A program made the translations under genes and the position numbers. Under the pieces are notes generated by a model. That model was not told where the DNA came from. It searched no databases and worked only from the letters and a program-made list of their open reading frames with translations. Shown one piece after another: positions 4,224 to 64,000 of a DNA stretch of 64,000 nt. Each line of letters opens with the position of its first letter. Position 1 is the stretch's first letter. The DNA is from Thioalkalivibrio sp. ALJ3 (GTDB taxonomy: Bacteria; Pseudomonadota; Gammaproteobacteria; Ectothiorhodospirales; Ectothiorhodospiraceae): the NCBI RefSeq assembly GCF_000377205.1, contig NZ_KB897906.1, positions 216,272 to 280,271 of the forward strand. The letters run 5' to 3'.

Positions 4224-5236
<1,013 letters not shown>

Positions 5237-5247
<11 letters not shown>

Positions 5248-5896
5248 CCATGCCCCCGACCTCTTCCAGGATTGCGTCTTCCAGGTCAACCAGAACCTCG
5301 GCCGTGGCACGCGACAGAGCCCCCACCAGCTGCGACGCAGAGCGCCGTTCCAGGGGCTGCTCGGATTCCAGGTGCACCAGACGGCTTCGCTCGCCCTGAC
5401 TCAACTGGGCGCGCAGTCCCATATGCCCGGTGCCCGAGGCCGCCAGCCCATTGGATTCGATCCCGTTCGCACCGTCCAGATCGCCGTACAAAGCCGTAAT
5501 CAGCACGTGGACCCGAATCGCGGGACGTCCCTGTTCGCGTACAGCGGCCGCATTATCGACCAACTCGATTGCCGCACCGCTGCGCGTCCAGCGTTCGCGC
5601 AACAACTGCTCGACCTGCTCCGAAGGCCTCAGGAACCACTCGTTGTAGTAGTCCGACTCGTACTGATGGTTTCCCAAACGGTACACCAGCCCATTGCCGG
5701 CATAAGCCGGGGCGACACGGACCGAGCCCAGTTCCACTGCCACAGGTTCGTCGGCCGTACGTGCCGCGGGCTCGTCTGGTAGTTCCAGCAGATACCAGGC
5801 GCGATCGACCGGTTCGCGTTCGGGCAGCAGGGTGCAGCCGCCCAGTAACAGCGCCACAAGCATCAGGATCGGGGTTTTCCACCAGTTCATGCTCAT
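5237..5896 (-). CDS. ABC-type transport auxiliary lipoprotein (PqiC-like)
   Basis: This is a 219-residue lipoprotein. The N-terminus MSMNWWKTPILMLVALLLGG-C ends in a clear lipobox, with the lipidated cysteine at residue 21. The residue after it is Thr, not Asp, which favours outer-membrane sorting. The body (YLLELPDEP..., VRVAPAYAGNGLVYRLG, DYYNEWFLRPSEQVEQLLRERW) matches the PqiC/YmbA-type family that works with MCE proteins. The start overlaps the MCE gene by four bases (ATGA). Its position after permease, ATPase and MCE subunits points to a role at the outer-membrane end of a phospholipid-shuttling system. That role is inferred from family and context. Confidence 0.88.
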
Positions 5897-6906
5897 TCCT
5901 TGTCCATACGGCTGCGCGGGGGTGGCGCACCAAACAACGCACCACCGGGGTTGCGGCGAACATCATCGGACAGGCTGCGCAGGCCCGAGATCGCACCTTG
6001 CAGTTCGTCCATTGTCTCCAGGAGCTTCGACTCGCTGACATCCATGCCACGATCAAGCCGCTCGACCATCGAGTCCATGCGATCGATCAGACCCGCGACA
6101 TCGGCTGCCTCGGCCGTACGGCGCAACTCGCGGATGGCCTCACGGGTTTCCGTCGGCAAAGCCTGCGTATCCGGATGGTCGACGAGTTGCTCGACCGACT
6201 GCATCACGCGGTCCGCGGTGCGCATGGTCTGCTCAAGCTCCGAAATCAACTCATCGGCTCGTTGATTCAGACCCGCCGTATCCAGGCTCGACACGGTTTC
6301 GTCAACGGTGATCAATACCGAATTCAGGTTTTCGATCACCCCCTCGATATCGAGCCCGTCGATCCTCATGAGCAGGTTTTCCGCGTACTCCATGAACCGG
6401 ACGGCGATGCTCGGGGAGGACGGAATGTAAATTGACCGGGGCTCCCAGTCGTGTTCCAGCGGCGGGTGTTCTTCCGGGTCCGAGAAGTCCGCTTCCAGAT
6501 AGTTCATCCCTGTAATGCCCTGTGCCGCGATCCGCACGCGCAGCCCGGCGTCGACCAGGCTCTTGAGGATCTCTGGCTCGAACTCCTGCTCGCGGGCAGT
6601 GGCCGCAAACCGGTCGGGCCACAGGCGCGCCTGCACCATCACATAGCGTTTGCGATCGCGCGGGTCGACATCGCGCTGGTATTCCACAGACGTAAATCCA
6701 AGCTCGGTAATCTCGCCGATGGTCACGCCCCTGAATTTCACGGGTGCTCCGACCTCCAGTCCCTGGACCGACGAGTCGATGTAGGTTTCGATCGGGATGG
6801 ACGCACGAAAGAGATTGCCCGCGGTCATGATGGTCAATGCGACCACCAGCGCCACCAGGCCGCCTACGATGAACAGTCCAAGGCCAAAATGTTGTCGGGC
6901 ACTCAT
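5893..6906 (-). CDS. MCE-domain (MlaD-like) phospholipid-binding protein
   Basis: The 337-residue protein has one N-terminal membrane helix (about 8-28), then an MCE domain (about 38-115, including VQGLEVGAPVKFRGVTIGEITELGFT). A long predicted helical region follows (about 190-310), rich in heptad-like Leu/Val and Glu/Arg. MCE proteins form periplasmic hexamers that carry lipids between membranes. The protein is longer than E. coli MlaD (about 180 aa) and nearer to the MCE proteins paired with PqiC-type lipoproteins. I chose ATG 6906 because it overlaps the ATPase stop as ATGA and starts directly before the membrane helix. The frame stays open to 6963. Confidence 0.92.
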   Translation of the reverse strand: MSARQHFGLGLFIVGGLVALVVALTIMTAGNLFRASIPIETYIDSSVQGLEVGAPVKFRGVTIGEITELGFTSVEYQRDVDPRDRKRYVMVQARLWPDRFAATAREQEFEPEILKSLVDAGLRVRIAAQGITGMNYLEADFSDPEEHPPLEHDWEPRSIYIPSSPSIAVRFMEYAENLLMRIDGLDIEGVIENLNSVLITVDETVSSLDTAGLNQRADELISELEQTMRTADRVMQSVEQLVDHPDTQALPTETREAIRELRRTAEAADVAGLIDRMDSMVERLDRGMDVSESKLLETMDELQGAISGLRSLSDDVRRNPGGALFGAPPPRSRMDKE

Positions 6907-54939: not shown

Positions 54940-56307
54940 ATGCCTCGAACCACATACGCACACGCCTGGCCGGCCATTGGTCTCTTCGCCGGGTTGGCTC
55001 TCGCCTTTGGACCCACACCCACTCTGGCGGATGACGGAGCCGGGAGCCGGGTCGTCTGGCAGGAACCCATCGAGGTGGCCCGCGGCGAGGCCTACCGAGG
55101 CCCCTGGCGCATGAATGCCTCCGACTTTCGCTATGTGGACGACGCCTCGGTGGCGATTAACGATCATGGCGAGGTGGTCGTCGTTTGGGTTGACCAGGTG
55201 GAGCAGGCGATCCTGCTGCAACGCTACAACCGGGACGGTCAGGCCGTCCTGGATGAACCCACCCGTATCGGCGGGGAACCGGACACCTTCTCCTGGCTGC
55301 CGCGCGTGGCGATCGAGCCGGCACCGGATGACGAGGACGACTTCACCGTGCATCTGCTCTGGCAGGAGATCCTGTTTACCGGGGGCGACCACGGCGGGGA
55401 GATCTTCTATGCCCGCTCCCGGGACGGCGGACGCTCCTTCGAGGGTCACCAGAACCTTTCGAACTCCCGCGATGGAGCCGGCAAGGGGCGCATCACCGCG
55501 CACCGCTGGGACAATGGCAGCCTGGACCTGCTCCTGGCCGGGAATGGACAAGTCGTCGCGGCCTGGACCGAATACCGGGGTCCACTGCGTGTCACCTATT
55601 CGTCCGACAACGGGGAAAGCTTCGCGGAGCCCGAGACGATCAACGACGGGGCCGACAAACCGGCCCGCGCACCGAGTCTGGCTCGGGCTCCCTCGGGGCG
55701 GATCCTGCTCGCCTGGTCGGAGGGCGACAGCCCGTATGCCGATATCCGCATCGCAACCTCGGATGAGCTGGGCGACGGTTTTACCGCACCCGCGACGGCG
55801 CTTGAAACGCCCGGTCACGCCGACGCCCCTTCGCTGGCCGTGGATGACGAAGGCACCGTGCATCTGGCGTTCGGGGCCATCCCAGCGAACGACCTGGAGG
55901 ACTACCGGCAACCCTACCACCGTCGACTGCACATCACCCAGGCCGATGCGGACACCCTGGAGTTCACCCCGCCGACCCAACTCGACGCGGACGACTGGCC
56001 GGGCGGCTTCCCCACGCTGGCGCGTTCTAACGAACGGCTCTATCTCATCTGGCAACGCTATCAACACCCGACCGATCGCCCGTACGGCCTCGCGTTTACC
56101 CACGCCCCACTGGACACCCTGGCGTTCGCGCCCGTCGAACCCGTCCGGGGGACCGTCGACCGGCCCTACAGCGGCGGGCTTCAGGGACAGCTGAAACGGC
56201 GGATGGCCGCCAACGCGGCTGGCGAGATCGCGATTGCCCAGAGCCGCTTCGTCCCGGGCAGCCACAGCGACATCCTGTTGATCCGTGGACAGACTCAGGA
56301 CCGCTGA
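54940..56307 (+). CDS. Secreted Asp-box (BNR) beta-propeller protein
   Basis: The 455-residue protein has a signal peptide (WPAIGLFAGLALAFGPTPTLADD). Repeated propeller-like blades follow, with Asp-box motifs ARSRDGGRSFEG and TYSSDNGESFAEP, as in sialidase-fold proteins. Between them are repeated AW-x-E/D strands (VVVWVDQVEQAILLQRY, VVAAWTEYRGPL, ILLAWSEGDSP, LYLIWQRYQH). I do not see the arginine triad of a true sialidase, so enzyme activity is doubtful. Its stop overlaps the ATG of the isoaspartyl peptidase gene. Confidence 0.75.
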   Translation: MPRTTYAHAWPAIGLFAGLALAFGPTPTLADDGAGSRVVWQEPIEVARGEAYRGPWRMNASDFRYVDDASVAINDHGEVVVVWVDQVEQAILLQRYNRDGQAVLDEPTRIGGEPDTFSWLPRVAIEPAPDDEDDFTVHLLWQEILFTGGDHGGEIFYARSRDGGRSFEGHQNLSNSRDGAGKGRITAHRWDNGSLDLLLAGNGQVVAAWTEYRGPLRVTYSSDNGESFAEPETINDGADKPARAPSLARAPSGRILLAWSEGDSPYADIRIATSDELGDGFTAPATALETPGHADAPSLAVDDEGTVHLAFGAIPANDLEDYRQPYHRRLHITQADADTLEFTPPTQLDADDWPGGFPTLARSNERLYLIWQRYQHPTDRPYGLAFTHAPLDTLAFAPVEPVRGTVDRPYSGGLQGQLKRRMAANAAGEIAIAQSRFVPGSHSDILLIRGQTQDR

Positions 56308-59941: not shown

Positions 59942-61414
59942 GTGAATCGGAATCCCACCGCAGCAAAATCCGGAGAACGGCCTCTACCCGCATACCCCGA
60001 CTGGCTGCTCCGCTTGCCCCGCCTGCAGGTCGGGATCGGCGTCGCGCTGTGCTACGCAATCGCCGTAGCTATCAGCATTCTGTTGGCCCAGGTCTCGCTA
60101 CAAACCAGTACCATCTGGCTGGCCAGCGGCGTCGGGCTTGCGGCGGTGCTGATCTGGGGCTACTGGCTGCTGCCAGTCCTCGCCATCGTGCACCTGCTGA
60201 CCAGCCAATGGCTCGGCAGTGACCTCGGCTGGCTGGCCCGCAGTGGCTGGGCGCTTATAGCCGTGGCCGAGATGGGACTGGCATCGCTGTGGCTGCAACG
60301 CGGACGGCCCGGCCTCGCACCCCGTCTGAATCTGCGCGGCACGGCCCGCTTCACGTTCATCGCACTGCTGGTCGTCCCGCTGGCAGGTTCCCTGCTGGCG
60401 GCGAGCTGGCTCCTGCTGCTGGGCCTGATTGATGGCGACACCTTCTATCTCATCGCCCGTAACTGGTTCGTGGCCGTGGTCCTGGGAATCGCCTCGATCG
60501 TGCCTCTGGTCAGCAATCTGCTGGTCCACGGTGTTCCCCGCTTTCACGGTCGCGGCGTCGAGGCACGCATTGTCCTGATGGGGCTATTGATCCCGACTGG
60601 CCTGATCCTTGGTTACCAGCTCACCCAGCACAACCCCGTGGAGGCGATGCTGTACGCCTCTCTCCCTTTATTGCTCTGGGCCAGCGTGTTCCTGCGCGAG
60701 ACGGGTGCGGCGATTGCAGTCACGCTATTGGTCCTGGGTGTGGTCGGGATCAATGGCGTGTCCCCCGACCACGCCTTGCCGATCTGGATCATCGGGGCCC
60801 ACATCATCGCGTTCGGCCTGATGGCTCTCATTATCGGAAGCGCTCAAAGCAGCCTGGAGGAGGCAATTACCGACCGGGCACGACAAGCCGAACTTGAATA
60901 TCTCGCCTACCACGACGCCCTCACCGGCCTGCCAAACCGTGCCCAGCTGCTGCGCGCACTGGATGGGCTGACAGATATGCAACCGAAAGGCGGCCCGCCG
61001 TTCGCCGTGTTGATGATGGACCTCGATGGTTTCAAACCCGTGAACGATCGACTGGGTCATGCAGCCGGCGATGCGGTTCTGCGCATCGTGGCGGAACGCC
61101 TGCAACGCCATTGCAAGGCCGCGGACCATGTCGCTCGTTTCGGCGGCGACGAGTTCGTGATCGTGCTGCCGCACTGTCCCGATTACGAACAGGCCCGCAA
61201 AGCCGGCGAGCGCCTGCGCGAGGTGATCCGTCAACCCATCCAGCTTCCCGCTTCCAAAGCCACGGACGTGGCCCACGTCGACGCCAGCATCGGTATTGTG
61301 CATTCTGGCCAGGTGCCACCGGATCCGGATGCCCTCCTGGCCGCTGCCGACCAGGCCCTATACCAGGCCAAGGCAACCGGACGCGCCCGGATCACGGCAT
61401 ACGCTACGCATTGA
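59942..61414 (+). CDS. MASE1-type membrane diguanylate cyclase
   Basis: The 490-residue protein starts at GTG 59942. The N-terminal 310 residues hold about eight to ten membrane helices of the MASE1 kind (STIWLASGVGLAAVLIWGYW, NWFVAVVLGIASIVPLVSNLL). A GGDEF domain follows (YHDALTGLPNRAQLL, MMDLDGFKPVNDRLGHAAGD, VARFGGDEFVIVLP). The active site is intact. The inhibition site reads KAAD instead of RxxD, so product feedback may be weak. The next gene downstream is a second diguanylate cyclase. Confidence 0.92.
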   Translation: MNRNPTAAKSGERPLPAYPDWLLRLPRLQVGIGVALCYAIAVAISILLAQVSLQTSTIWLASGVGLAAVLIWGYWLLPVLAIVHLLTSQWLGSDLGWLARSGWALIAVAEMGLASLWLQRGRPGLAPRLNLRGTARFTFIALLVVPLAGSLLAASWLLLLGLIDGDTFYLIARNWFVAVVLGIASIVPLVSNLLVHGVPRFHGRGVEARIVLMGLLIPTGLILGYQLTQHNPVEAMLYASLPLLLWASVFLRETGAAIAVTLLVLGVVGINGVSPDHALPIWIIGAHIIAFGLMALIIGSAQSSLEEAITDRARQAELEYLAYHDALTGLPNRAQLLRALDGLTDMQPKGGPPFAVLMMDLDGFKPVNDRLGHAAGDAVLRIVAERLQRHCKAADHVARFGGDEFVIVLPHCPDYEQARKAGERLREVIRQPIQLPASKATDVAHVDASIGIVHSGQVPPDPDALLAAADQALYQAKATGRARITAYATH

Positions 61415-61566
61415 CAGGCCGCAAATGGCGCGCGGTTGTTGAAAACGCATGCGACGCGCATTATACGGAGCGGCAGCAAGGACGCTGGCGTTACGGAACG
61501 GACTCGGGAGCAAGGCATGCGCGGGCACAGGACGCCATCGATGGATCGGCAGCCAGGGCCGGGATC

Positions 61567-62877
61567 ATGAGGATCCTGGTGGTGGACCGTTCACGCGTGT
61601 TCCGCGCCCTGTGGAGCCGCATGGTGGGAGCCGCCGGACACGAAGCGAGCATGGCCGGCACCGGCGCCGAGGGCCTCGCACGCCTGGACATCTTTCGCGC
61701 GGAGCTGGCCTGTGTTTCGCTGAGCCTGCCCGACATGGATGGTCTGGAATTTTGCCGCGCGGCGCGCAAGAAGCGCTATGGCCGCGGGCTCCCGCTGATC
61801 ATCCTTACGTCCAACCCCGACCTGCGGATTCGCGAACGCGCCTTCGCCGCGGGGGCCACGGACGTGCACGACCGAACCAACATCGGCGATCTGTTCCAGC
61901 AGGCCGAACGCTACGCACAACCGCTGGAGACGCTCCACAGCGGGCGGGTTCTGTATGTCGAGGACAGCCCCACTGCCGCACGCTACCTGAGCCGTGCACT
62001 GGAGCCCATGGGACTCGATATCGTGCACTACACCAATGCGTCCGAAGCCCTCGCGGCCTTCGACCCGTCTCACTTCGACCTGGTCCTGAGCGATGTTCTC
62101 GTGGAGGGCGAACTCAGTGGCATGGGCCTCGTAGGGTGTATCCGACAGCAATGCCCGGACATGACGGCGATGCCGATCGTTGCGATGTCGGGCCTGGATG
62201 ATCAGCATCGACGGGCGGAATTATTTCGCTTGGGTGTCAACGACTTTATAACGAAACCCGTTCAACGAGATGAGCTACGTGCTCGTCTGAGCAACCTCTT
62301 GAACAACAAGCGCCTGATGGACGAGGTCCGCCTCCAGCGCCAGAAGCACTACGAGATGGCCATGGTGGATCCCCTGACCGGGCTCAGCAATCGCAATGCC
62401 CTGAGCGACTTCGCCAGCCGATTTTTCGACGAGCCCGGCAGCCAGGAACAACCGATTGCACTGATATTGATGGATCTCGACCGCTTCAAGGACATCAACG
62501 ACCGCCACGGACATCTGGTTGGCGACGAGGTCCTCGCGGCCATTGGTGAACTTCTGCGCACGGTGGCCACTCCTGGCGAGGTCCCTATCCGCTTCGGTGG
62601 CGAAGAGCTGCTGATCCTGATGCCGGGCAGTGACCTGTTCGACGCGCATACGCGTGCCGAGGACCTGCGCCAGCGGATCCAGGAGCTGCATCCAGCCGGC
62701 CTCCCGCTGACCGCTTCGTTCGGCGTCACCAGCCGGGAGCCCGGAAGCAACGCCGGAATCAACGACCTGTTCCGCGCGGCCGACGAAGCGGTCTACAACG
62801 CCAAGGCCCGAGGACGAAACTGCGTGGTTTCACTCCCCAGCCGGCATGACAGCCCTGCAGTGGAGTACTACGGCTGA
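61567..62877 (+). CDS. Two-receiver response regulator with GGDEF domain
   Basis: This 436-residue PleD-like protein starts at ATG 61567. The first receiver (about 1-125) has Ser51 where the phospho-acceptor aspartate should be (VSLSLPDMDG). The second (about 130-255) keeps it (FDLVLSDVLVEG), and its conserved Lys is in FITKPV. The GGDEF domain carries MDLDRFKDINDRHGHLVGDEVL and a RFGGEELLIL active loop, without an RxxD inhibition site. It should make c-di-GMP when the second receiver is phosphorylated. The cognate kinase is not obvious. It may be encoded by the gene cut at the right edge. Confidence 0.92.
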   Translation: MRILVVDRSRVFRALWSRMVGAAGHEASMAGTGAEGLARLDIFRAELACVSLSLPDMDGLEFCRAARKKRYGRGLPLIILTSNPDLRIRERAFAAGATDVHDRTNIGDLFQQAERYAQPLETLHSGRVLYVEDSPTAARYLSRALEPMGLDIVHYTNASEALAAFDPSHFDLVLSDVLVEGELSGMGLVGCIRQQCPDMTAMPIVAMSGLDDQHRRAELFRLGVNDFITKPVQRDELRARLSNLLNNKRLMDEVRLQRQKHYEMAMVDPLTGLSNRNALSDFASRFFDEPGSQEQPIALILMDLDRFKDINDRHGHLVGDEVLAAIGELLRTVATPGEVPIRFGGEELLILMPGSDLFDAHTRAEDLRQRIQELHPAGLPLTASFGVTSREPGSNAGINDLFRAADEAVYNAKARGRNCVVSLPSRHDSPAVEYYG

Positions 62878-62959
62878 TCGCGGTCACAGAATCCGCCCTG
62901 TTTTCTCAGGGTTCGATCCTTTAGGGTCACGAGTTAGAGATTCGAATGGGAACAATGGA

Positions 62960-63508
62960 ATGAAAGGCATTGTGTTTAACGTCCTTGAAGATATCGTGAC
63001 GGAACACTACGGCGAGGCTGGCTGGGACGACGTCCTGGGCAGGGCGGAAGTCAGCGGCGTCTATACCTCGCTCGGGAATTACGAAGATGACGAGATGATG
63101 CGACTTGTCAGCGCCGCCTGCGAGATCACGGGCCTCGATACCTCCGACTGTCTGCAATGGATCGGGCGCGAGATGCTTCCGCGCTTCGAACAGGCCTACC
63201 CGGGTGTATTCGATCCCTACCCCGATTCGATGGGGCTTCTCCAGGCCCTGAACGACGTGATCCACCCGGAGGTCGTGAAACTCTACCCGGGCGCTCAAGT
63301 CCCTGTGTTTGACTGTGAGCAAACTGGACCCCACGAGTTGTCGATGGACTACCGTTCCGAACGCGGACTTTGCTCACTGGCACACGGGCTTATGCTGGGC
63401 ACTGGCGATCGCTACGGGCAAACCGTCCATGTCGATCACCCCGAGTGCCAGCATCGAGGCGACACCCGCTGCCATTTCCAGATCCATATCGAGCCGCGCG
63501 TTGGCTGA
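62960..63508 (+). CDS. H-NOX haem nitric-oxide sensor
   Basis: The 182-residue protein begins MKGIVFNVLEDIVTEHYG. The haem ligand is His102 in NDVIHPEVVKLYPGA. The propionate-binding YxSxR is Tyr131-Ser133-Arg135, at the family-standard numbers. Residue 140 is Leu, not the Tyr found in O2-binding H-NOX, so it should prefer NO. A putative zinc site Cys138, His160, Cys163, Cys171 resembles that of Vibrio/Shewanella H-NOX. The frame is open to 62846, but homology starts at ATG 62960. It follows a diguanylate cyclase and precedes a GAF protein. Confidence 0.96.
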   Translation: MKGIVFNVLEDIVTEHYGEAGWDDVLGRAEVSGVYTSLGNYEDDEMMRLVSAACEITGLDTSDCLQWIGREMLPRFEQAYPGVFDPYPDSMGLLQALNDVIHPEVVKLYPGAQVPVFDCEQTGPHELSMDYRSERGLCSLAHGLMLGTGDRYGQTVHVDHPECQHRGDTRCHFQIHIEPRVG

Positions 63509-64000
63509 CCCGCACCACCAAGAGGATGCAAGGGCTGCGACGGCACAACGTGATCGCCGCCTGCATCGCGAGCGGCAGGCTCGGCAGGAAGCCGAGCGGA
63601 TCGCCGAAGACGCTACCCGGCGCCTGTATCGAGAACAGATCAAGCTCGCAACCATCCTGGAAGTCACGCGACTGGCCAATGCCAGCGACAGTCTGGAAGA
63701 CACCACGGCTCAGGGGCTGCAGCAGCTCGCCGCCCACACCGTCTGGAAGCGCGGCCATGCCCTTTACCGCAACCCGGAGGGACACCTGCGGCGGATTGCC
63801 GAGCTGAACCTCCCCGCACAGGATGGTGCGATCGAACCTACACCCGCAGGTCGGGTACTACTGGACTCGGCCAGCGGCATCGAAAGCCAGCTTGGGCTCG
63901 CTGCCCAATCGCCCAACGACCCGGTTCGCTGCTGTATCTGCAGCATCTATGTCCATGGCCATTGCTATGGCCTGATCGAGGCCTTCGCCGACACCCCGGA
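63501..64000 (+). CDS. Coiled-coil/GAF signalling protein, partial (right edge)
   Basis: An open frame runs from about TTG 63501, overlapping the H-NOX stop by eight bases, to the window end (about 166 codons, no stop). It begins with a charged coiled coil (ARAATAQRDRRLHRER, EAERIAEDATRRLYREQIKLATILEV). A GAF-like domain follows (LQQLAAHTVWKRGHALYRNPEG, CCICSIYVHGHCYGLIEAF). No in-frame ATG is seen, so the TTG start is provisional. H-NOX genes are usually followed by a histidine kinase or a c-di-GMP enzyme. The output domain lies beyond the window. Confidence 0.6.
   Translation, partial: MADPHHQEDARAATAQRDRRLHRERQARQEAERIAEDATRRLYREQIKLATILEVTRLANASDSLEDTTAQGLQQLAAHTVWKRGHALYRNPEGHLRRIAELNLPAQDGAIEPTPAGRVLLDSASGIESQLGLAAQSPNDPVRCCICSIYVHGHCYGLIEAFADTP

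Follow-up and report, generated by a model that had tools for sequence, protein, structure and literature searches.

A probable nitric oxide-to-c-di-GMP gene pair of Thioalkalivibrio and the coil that its enzyme shares with H-NOX-linked kinases

A stand-alone H-NOX protein encoded beside a GGDEF-EAL enzyme is an established arrangement. H-NOX with a diguanylate cyclase/phosphodiesterase (DGC/PDE) of cyclic di-GMP (c-di-GMP) is listed in Table 1 of PMC8738867 (LPG1056/LPG1057 and SWOO_2751/SWOO_2750), and pairs of H-NOX and c-di-GMP enzymes also appear in Table 4 and neighbouring text of PMC8846402; the name HaCE is used for such enzymes in PMC7108781. Passages of these papers report that in Shewanella woodyi nitric oxide (NO) decreases the activity of the cyclase and increases that of the phosphodiesterase (PMC8846402), and that NO-bound H-NOX inhibits the cyclase in Legionella (PMC8738867). 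In Shewanella oneidensis and Vibrio cholerae the partner is, according to an excerpt of PMC7108781, a histidine kinase that works via a response regulator, whereas in the Thioalkalivibrio locus described here the partner is the c-di-GMP enzyme itself. This locus lies at the end of a stretch of 64,000 nucleotides of Thioalkalivibrio sp. ALJ3 (the window; G000:C2:216272-280271, in the 2.63-Mb genome G000), where an H-NOX gene is followed by a gene cut by the window end, which we read beyond position 64000 on the surrounding genome sequence (stretch L002). By domain make-up the pair resembles SwH-NOX/SwDGC of S. woodyi (SWOO_2751/SWOO_2750), a stand-alone H-NOX and one GGDEF-and-EAL enzyme, and Hnox1/Lpg1057 of Legionella pneumophila, H-NOX with a DGC/PDE. 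In the literature on Thioalkalivibrio with nitric oxide or c-di-GMP, titles and abstract starts held no H-NOX work. With this pair, the known switch from NO to c-di-GMP would be extended to haloalkaliphilic sulphur bacteria, here a soda-lake bacterium. The enzyme begins with a short coil, the unexpected feature of this otherwise known two-gene switch; as far as sequence tells, the coil is common to very different kinases that are putative H-NOX partners.

The H-NOX gene and its partner

Listed are the features of the pair in window coordinates, with the E-values of their matches.

62960-63508, + strand: H-NOX (heme NO sensor), 182 residues; Pfam HNOB 1.2e-41
63501-64000, + strand, continuing to window-equivalent 65381 (L002:6653): 5' part of the partner gene, coil-GAF-GGDEF-EAL; GGDEF 1.1e-37, EAL 6e-69
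63555-63662, + strand: N-terminal coil of the partner, 36 residues, proposed H-NOX docking module; profile E 6.9e-14, the coil being among those on which the profile was trained
63930-63965, + strand: Cys-rich stretch C144-C145-x-C147...C155 within the partner GAF (residues 144-155), from the alignment of partners

What does this pair do? We favour, at a probability of roughly 0.85, an NO-sensing c-di-GMP switch that acts via the coil of the partner and without phosphotransfer. NO would be bound by H-NOX at a heme held by His102, as the family suggests, and H-NOX would dock on the N-terminal coil of the partner, as the near-exclusive association of this coil with H-NOX suggests. NO binding, or possibly oxidation of Cys and His residues of the zinc site, would shift the balance between GGDEF and EAL via coil and GAF, and phosphotransfer would be unnecessary in this scheme. 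NO is expected to lower c-di-GMP synthesis, a direction taken by analogy from SwH-NOX/SwDGC of S. woodyi and Hnox1/Lpg1057 of Legionella.

The H-NOX protein scores 142.8 bits against a curated Pfam cut-off of 25.5 for HNOB, the whole domain being covered (positions 1-163 of 163). His102 and Tyr131-x-Ser133-x-Arg135 line up with the His and the Y-x-S-x-R of structures 2kii and 4u9b; the proximal His and Tyr-x-Ser-x-Arg we take to be the heme-contact motifs of H-NOX proteins. In three relatives the protein is 64-88% identical.

Read to its full length of 626 residues, the partner has a long N-terminal helix and GGDEF and EAL domains above their Pfam cut-offs. The output domain that the original prediction had left beyond position 64000 is thus that of a signalling enzyme. 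Its motifs are intact (GGDEF at 280, RxxD at 271-274, EAL at 409), and the conserved residues of the EAL domain are invariant in all seven aligned sequences. Pfam returned no GAF row for the partner at E<=5, and for the orthologue in G024 it gave GAF_2 at 0.0036, under its cut-off. The GAF fold is clear in the predicted structure of an 85%-identical orthologue (L067; pLDDT 81.9), for which the best PDB match was the GAF structure 3ci6 (VIA-align 2; Z 17.8, root mean square deviation 2.7, 154 residues). The partner coil falls inside helix 4-60 of this fold. We infer a TTG start at 63501, the reading frame staying open further upstream; with this start the gene overlaps the end of H-NOX by 8 bases, in agreement with the predicted overlap of H-NOX and a downstream GAF gene. 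Gene adjacency to the point of overlap and intact GGDEF and EAL motifs place the two genes with the H-NOX/HaCE pairs. A histidine kinase, the partner that defines the H-NOX/HnoK two-component systems, is ruled out, because the partner has no Pfam match to HisKA or HATPase.

Do the two genes belong together outside this strain? The genus set comprises 30 genomes, of which 23 have >=90% completeness and <=5% contamination; the other 7 lie outside these bounds, so that single absences there mean little. H-NOX was matched in 5 of the 30. In four of these (G000, G001, G029 and G024) a coil-GAF-GGDEF-EAL gene follows, and in the fifth, G006, a hybrid kinase, a label with which Pfam agrees. Together with the 8-base overlap, this conservation supports the proposed link from H-NOX to c-di-GMP, in which the cut gene is the likely partner.

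Two more genes precede the pair, giving the order MASE1-GGDEF, REC-REC-GGDEF, H-NOX and cut gene by open reading frame calls and Pfam.

59942-61414, + strand: MASE1-GGDEF membrane diguanylate cyclase, neighbour only; Pfam MASE1 2.6e-13, GGDEF 6e-42; GGDEF motif intact
61567-62877, + strand: REC-REC-GGDEF response regulator, PleD-like, neighbour only; GGDEF 1.9e-36, Response_reg 2.2e-31 in two stretches

At these E-values the domain matches of all four genes are not chance, and the genes are present as originally named. The two diguanylate cyclases of that description are correct for the genes upstream of H-NOX; the cut gene brings the GGDEF domains of the cluster to three. A four-gene NO operon is nonetheless rejected. 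MASE1-GGDEF was matched at E<=1e-40 in 1 of 30 genomes, the window's own, and for this reason the four-gene order, whose conservation in relatives had been suggested as a check, occurs in 0 of the 29 other genomes. G025 and G020 have the same flanks (IsoAsp, ADA, regulator, methyltransferase, T2SSE, QOR, ThiI) without the H-NOX pair; there, the regulator and the methyltransferase frame are 143 bases apart. Orthologues of REC-REC-GGDEF occur in 13 of 30 genomes at 62-100% identity, counting the best per genome (G006, with a 33% match only, is left out; a further copy in G001 is 58% identical). The regulator adjoins H-NOX in 3 of these 13, about 82 bp upstream and in the same direction; 9 of the other 10 are without any H-NOX match. 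In G024 the regulator and the H-NOX pair are on separate contigs. Since the pair is preserved at another genome place in G024 and its neighbours occur independently of it, the unit is the H-NOX/partner pair, and the two GGDEF genes are mere neighbours.

A coil common to H-NOX partners

Why should the partner of a c-di-GMP switch begin with a coil? Some frame with a motif within 3 substitutions of a pattern such as RE..AR..AE.L.E.KSR.LY was found at 18 of 34 H-NOX loci. The coil profile has 37 positions and was built from 13 aligned coils of H-NOX partners, 12 of them at the protein start and one (G074) internal; the consensus reads RRxxRERxARxxAExLLExKSRELYxxNxxL. We searched it over 398 Pseudomonadota genomes, and HNOB over 398 drawn likewise, for which the listed genomes agree. 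At E<=1e-8, 28 of 28 coil matches are on the strand of an H-NOX match and start 86-125 bp after it; two of them (G000, G391) are training rows and 26 are not. At E<=1e-5, 32 of 41 matches lie downstream of H-NOX, 8 come from genomes whose H-NOX is at another place, and 1 (G316) follows an H-NOX remnant. The remnant (L214:6293-6433) retains about 47 residues of the C-terminal region (tblastn residues 129-175, 38% identity, E 1.8e-5) and lies upstream of an intact coil-GGDEF-EAL gene (4365-6284), the G316 genome having no H-NOX match otherwise; G746, of the same genus, has a complete H-NOX/partner pair (L215). The G316 partner is apparently an orphan whose sensor was lost. At E<=0.01, 35 of 57 matches adjoin H-NOX. 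The non-adjacent matches are in genomes with H-NOX in 19 of 22 cases, against a base rate of 103/398, 13 of the 19 belonging to one family (f223).

The enzymes that carry the coil are diverse. Outputs were read at 28 of the 35 adjacent loci (L121-L146, L148, L149), 26 of which are strong matches: 21 are kinases, 6 are GGDEF-EAL proteins and 1 is unclassified (L145, with GAF only in the part read). These labels, like those at HNOBA loci below, rest on single reference proteins; Pfam confirmed eight of them, namely five adjacent coil loci, L180, L203 and the G006 hybrid kinase. The same coil thus begins H-NOX-adjacent kinases, which contradicts the earlier view that the cut gene begins unlike HnoK, and it likens the pair to H-NOX/HnoK systems, as far as the kinases of the genomes read here show. 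In G074, a REC-GGDEF-coil-kinase protein (L016:6236-8284, domains by eye) lies beside H-NOX. Its coil is in mid-protein, just before the kinase, which suggests that coil and output move together. In another set of 11 H-NOX loci, 10 have the coil at E<0.01 (two weakly, at 0.006, and two from training strains or their orthologues), one coil-bearing locus being from a metagenome-assembled genome of Acidimicrobiia, outside Pseudomonadota. In a 96-genome run all 8 strong matches were in the gene adjoining H-NOX.

Viewed from the side of H-NOX, 116 HNOB rows were obtained, one of which (G579, E 6.6e-7) was dropped before they were split by frame length. The coil follows 35 H-NOX genes in the sample. 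With HNOB at E<1e-28, 30 of 38 rows in frames <300 aa have it downstream, compared with 1 of 51 rows in longer frames (G606, 327 aa). Three kinases beside H-NOX that lack a profile match (G184, G728, G710) show, by eye, a diverged coil. In four proteins scanned with Pfam, no match with an E-value below 0.027 coincides with the coil. The coil is undescribed in the literature searched, but the two HDX interface papers of 2017 and 2018 and the original Legionella and S. woodyi papers may already cover the partner side.

HNOBA, another domain of H-NOX partners, was sought at E<=0.001 in the 62 genomes with H-NOX in frames <300 aa. It follows 12 H-NOX genes, 85-219 bp downstream, and one further HNOBA piece lies elsewhere (G467:C3); most rows are weak (E 1e-6 to 5e-4), and a second piece in the same frame of G443 was left out of the comparison. 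Coil and HNOBA never both follow one H-NOX gene (0 of 12 HNOBA cases have the coil), and the other H-NOX genes match neither of the two at the E-values used. In G000 no HNOBA match at E<=0.001 was found anywhere in the genome, partner included. HNOBA-type partners resemble the Thioalkalivibrio partner in having a partner-side domain beside H-NOX and ahead of a kinase, GGDEF or GGDEF-EAL output; they differ in that the Thioalkalivibrio partner has the coil in the place of HNOBA. The simplest account of these sequences is that the coil is a partner-side docking module, alternative to HNOBA, and that both precede differing outputs. One small sensor would in this way control kinases and c-di-GMP enzymes without a common catalytic domain. 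G467 has two H-NOX genes (G467:C1:786381 and G467:C1:2227533), one with a coil-type and one with an HNOBA-type partner, a natural pair for comparing H-NOX/partner specificity.

The wider proposal is that the 37-residue coil is a transferable H-NOX docking module, that coil or HNOBA ahead of a kinase or c-di-GMP enzyme makes the NO response, and that the coil can locate unlinked partners; to us the odds of this seem even. If true, the coil would be the other half of a contact known from the H-NOX side, where exchange mapping, in the relevant passage of PMC7108781, assigns the contact with HnoK to helices A-C and F. It would also predict H-NOX partners from sequence alone and provide a ready tag for rendering an enzyme NO-responsive. 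At L180-L193 (mostly f223), away from H-NOX, the coil match is moderate to weak and falls on hybrid kinases and, in one case, on a plain kinase. Their genomes have H-NOX at another place, and these proteins are candidates for unlinked H-NOX partners.

Several observations weigh against a switch that acts through the coil or limit the coil comparison. At E<=0.01, 22 of 57 coil matches do not adjoin H-NOX. The 27 genomes with strong matches represent 13 families, yet 8 are of one genus (g278), so the matches are not independent events. Nor is the 96-genome run independent, since all 8 strong matches are training rows or their orthologues; in that run G087, a ninth H-NOX genome, had no coil match, and 5 matches at E 0.002-0.007 did not adjoin H-NOX. 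Of all rows in frames <300 aa, only 35 of 64 are followed by the coil; two of these rows stem from one broken gene, that of G677. Within the genus, paralogous coil-GAF-GGDEF-EAL proteins (L063, L064, L065, L066; 33-34% identical, with GAF_2 at 1.6e-12 in one scanned) have a diverged coil, and none of their matched neighbour frames is an H-NOX. The partner gene of G029 (L014:9763-11727) is broken by an in-frame TAA next to an intact H-NOX, and the NO switch may be decaying there. This stop, and the two close relatives without the pair, indicate that the pair is dispensable.

Could the coil then be merely a dimerisation or signalling helix, co-inherited by H-NOX-linked enzymes and holding no docking site? 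Coils ahead of GAF, GGDEF and kinase domains are common, and the non-adjacent matches and the paralogues with their diverged coil would fit such a helix. We regard this account as possible, though somewhat doubtful: the coil is common to unrelated outputs (kinases and GGDEF-EAL proteins among the 28 loci), every strong match abuts H-NOX, and coil and HNOBA do not occur together behind any one H-NOX gene.

Oxidants and phosphotransfer

Might H-NOX answer oxidants via its zinc-Cys site instead of NO, with the same partner? Cys138, His160, Cys163 and Cys171 are at the zinc-site positions of 2kii and 4u9b, in keeping with the three Cys and one His or Gln of such a site, and they are invariant among the four Thioalkalivibrio H-NOX proteins. 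A related entry, 4u99 of S. oneidensis H-NOX, serves as the zinc-site structure in a portion of PMC12329717, where it is also reported that in Caulobacter oxidation of the H-NOX Cys residues inhibited HnoK and the NO-bound form did not. The same zinc-site Cys residues are, however, a likeness to the H-NOX/HnoK/HnoB systems of S. oneidensis and V. cholerae, and the Shewanella and Vibrio H-NOX proteins, zinc site included, inhibit the kinase in their NO-bound form (parts of PMC12329717 and PMC7108781). An answer to oxidants in place of NO is unlikely; by its residues H-NOX could respond to NO, oxidants or both. A Cys cluster (CCxC...C) is also found in the GAF of the G000, G001 and G024 partners, and in neither L069-L071 nor the four L063-L066 paralogues; it is a possible metal or redox site.

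The REC-REC-GGDEF regulator resembles PleD in layout, and its first structure matches were 2wb4 (E 1.4e-45) and PleD itself, 1w25 (E 1.8e-45). It differs from PleD in its output motif, GGEEL, and in a first receiver without Asp, which reads LACVSLSLPDMDG where the acceptor Asp is expected; the second receiver has DLVLSD. The score for the NCBIfam PleD equivalog was 201 bits, below its cut-off of 474. It had been proposed that NO on H-NOX steers phosphotransfer to the second receiver of this regulator, so that both cyclases respond to NO; the receiver retains its Asp, the gene is close to H-NOX and co-directional in three genomes, and S. oneidensis H-NOX acts via a kinase on a response regulator (PMC7108781, in the text available), but this wiring is highly improbable, as the partner has no kinase domain, HisKA and HATPase are absent by Pfam from all 18 proteins between window position 54940 and L002:18911 (a local scan, with the rest of the genome outside it), 10 of 13 genomes with a regulator orthologue have no H-NOX beside it, and G024 has the two on different contigs.

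History of the locus and other observations

The flank tree is (G000,(((G001,G029)98,G025)100,G020)76), with the pair present in G000, G001 and G029. The tree would fit a single gain of the pair with two losses, but by eye the two empty sites, of G025 and G020, are alike in about 40 bases that are absent from occupied sites. This likeness speaks for one empty state that recombination has moved.

Genome G000 also encodes FIST with FIST_C, the domain pair of NosP, in one gene (G000:C1:696568-697116, L213:6101-7231; Pfam 4.3e-16 and 1e-23), possibly a second NO sensor; in the 13 kb around it no kinase matched the reference proteins. That the coil marks NO-sensor partners in general is not supported. 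It was found at E<0.01 at 0 of 30 FIST loci (L078-L107, with 1.5 kb flanks), chosen as the best among 51 genomes that matched FIST, and 0 of 20 stretches with non-adjacent coil loci matched a FIST reference (of 22; G625 and G684 were left out). Of the ten FIST references, the one taken from L088 looks like an antisense frame; its match in L213 was on the other strand from FIST.

Scans of L002:2500-7000 gave 0 promoters against 1.1 expected and 3 terminators against 2.5 expected. The next gene downstream of the partner encodes, by Pfam, a methyltransferase. Two more c-di-GMP genes, a CSS-motif EAL gene (L002:15876-17444) and a further GGDEF gene (L002:18162-18914), lie within about 14 kb downstream, so that the region is dense in c-di-GMP genes.

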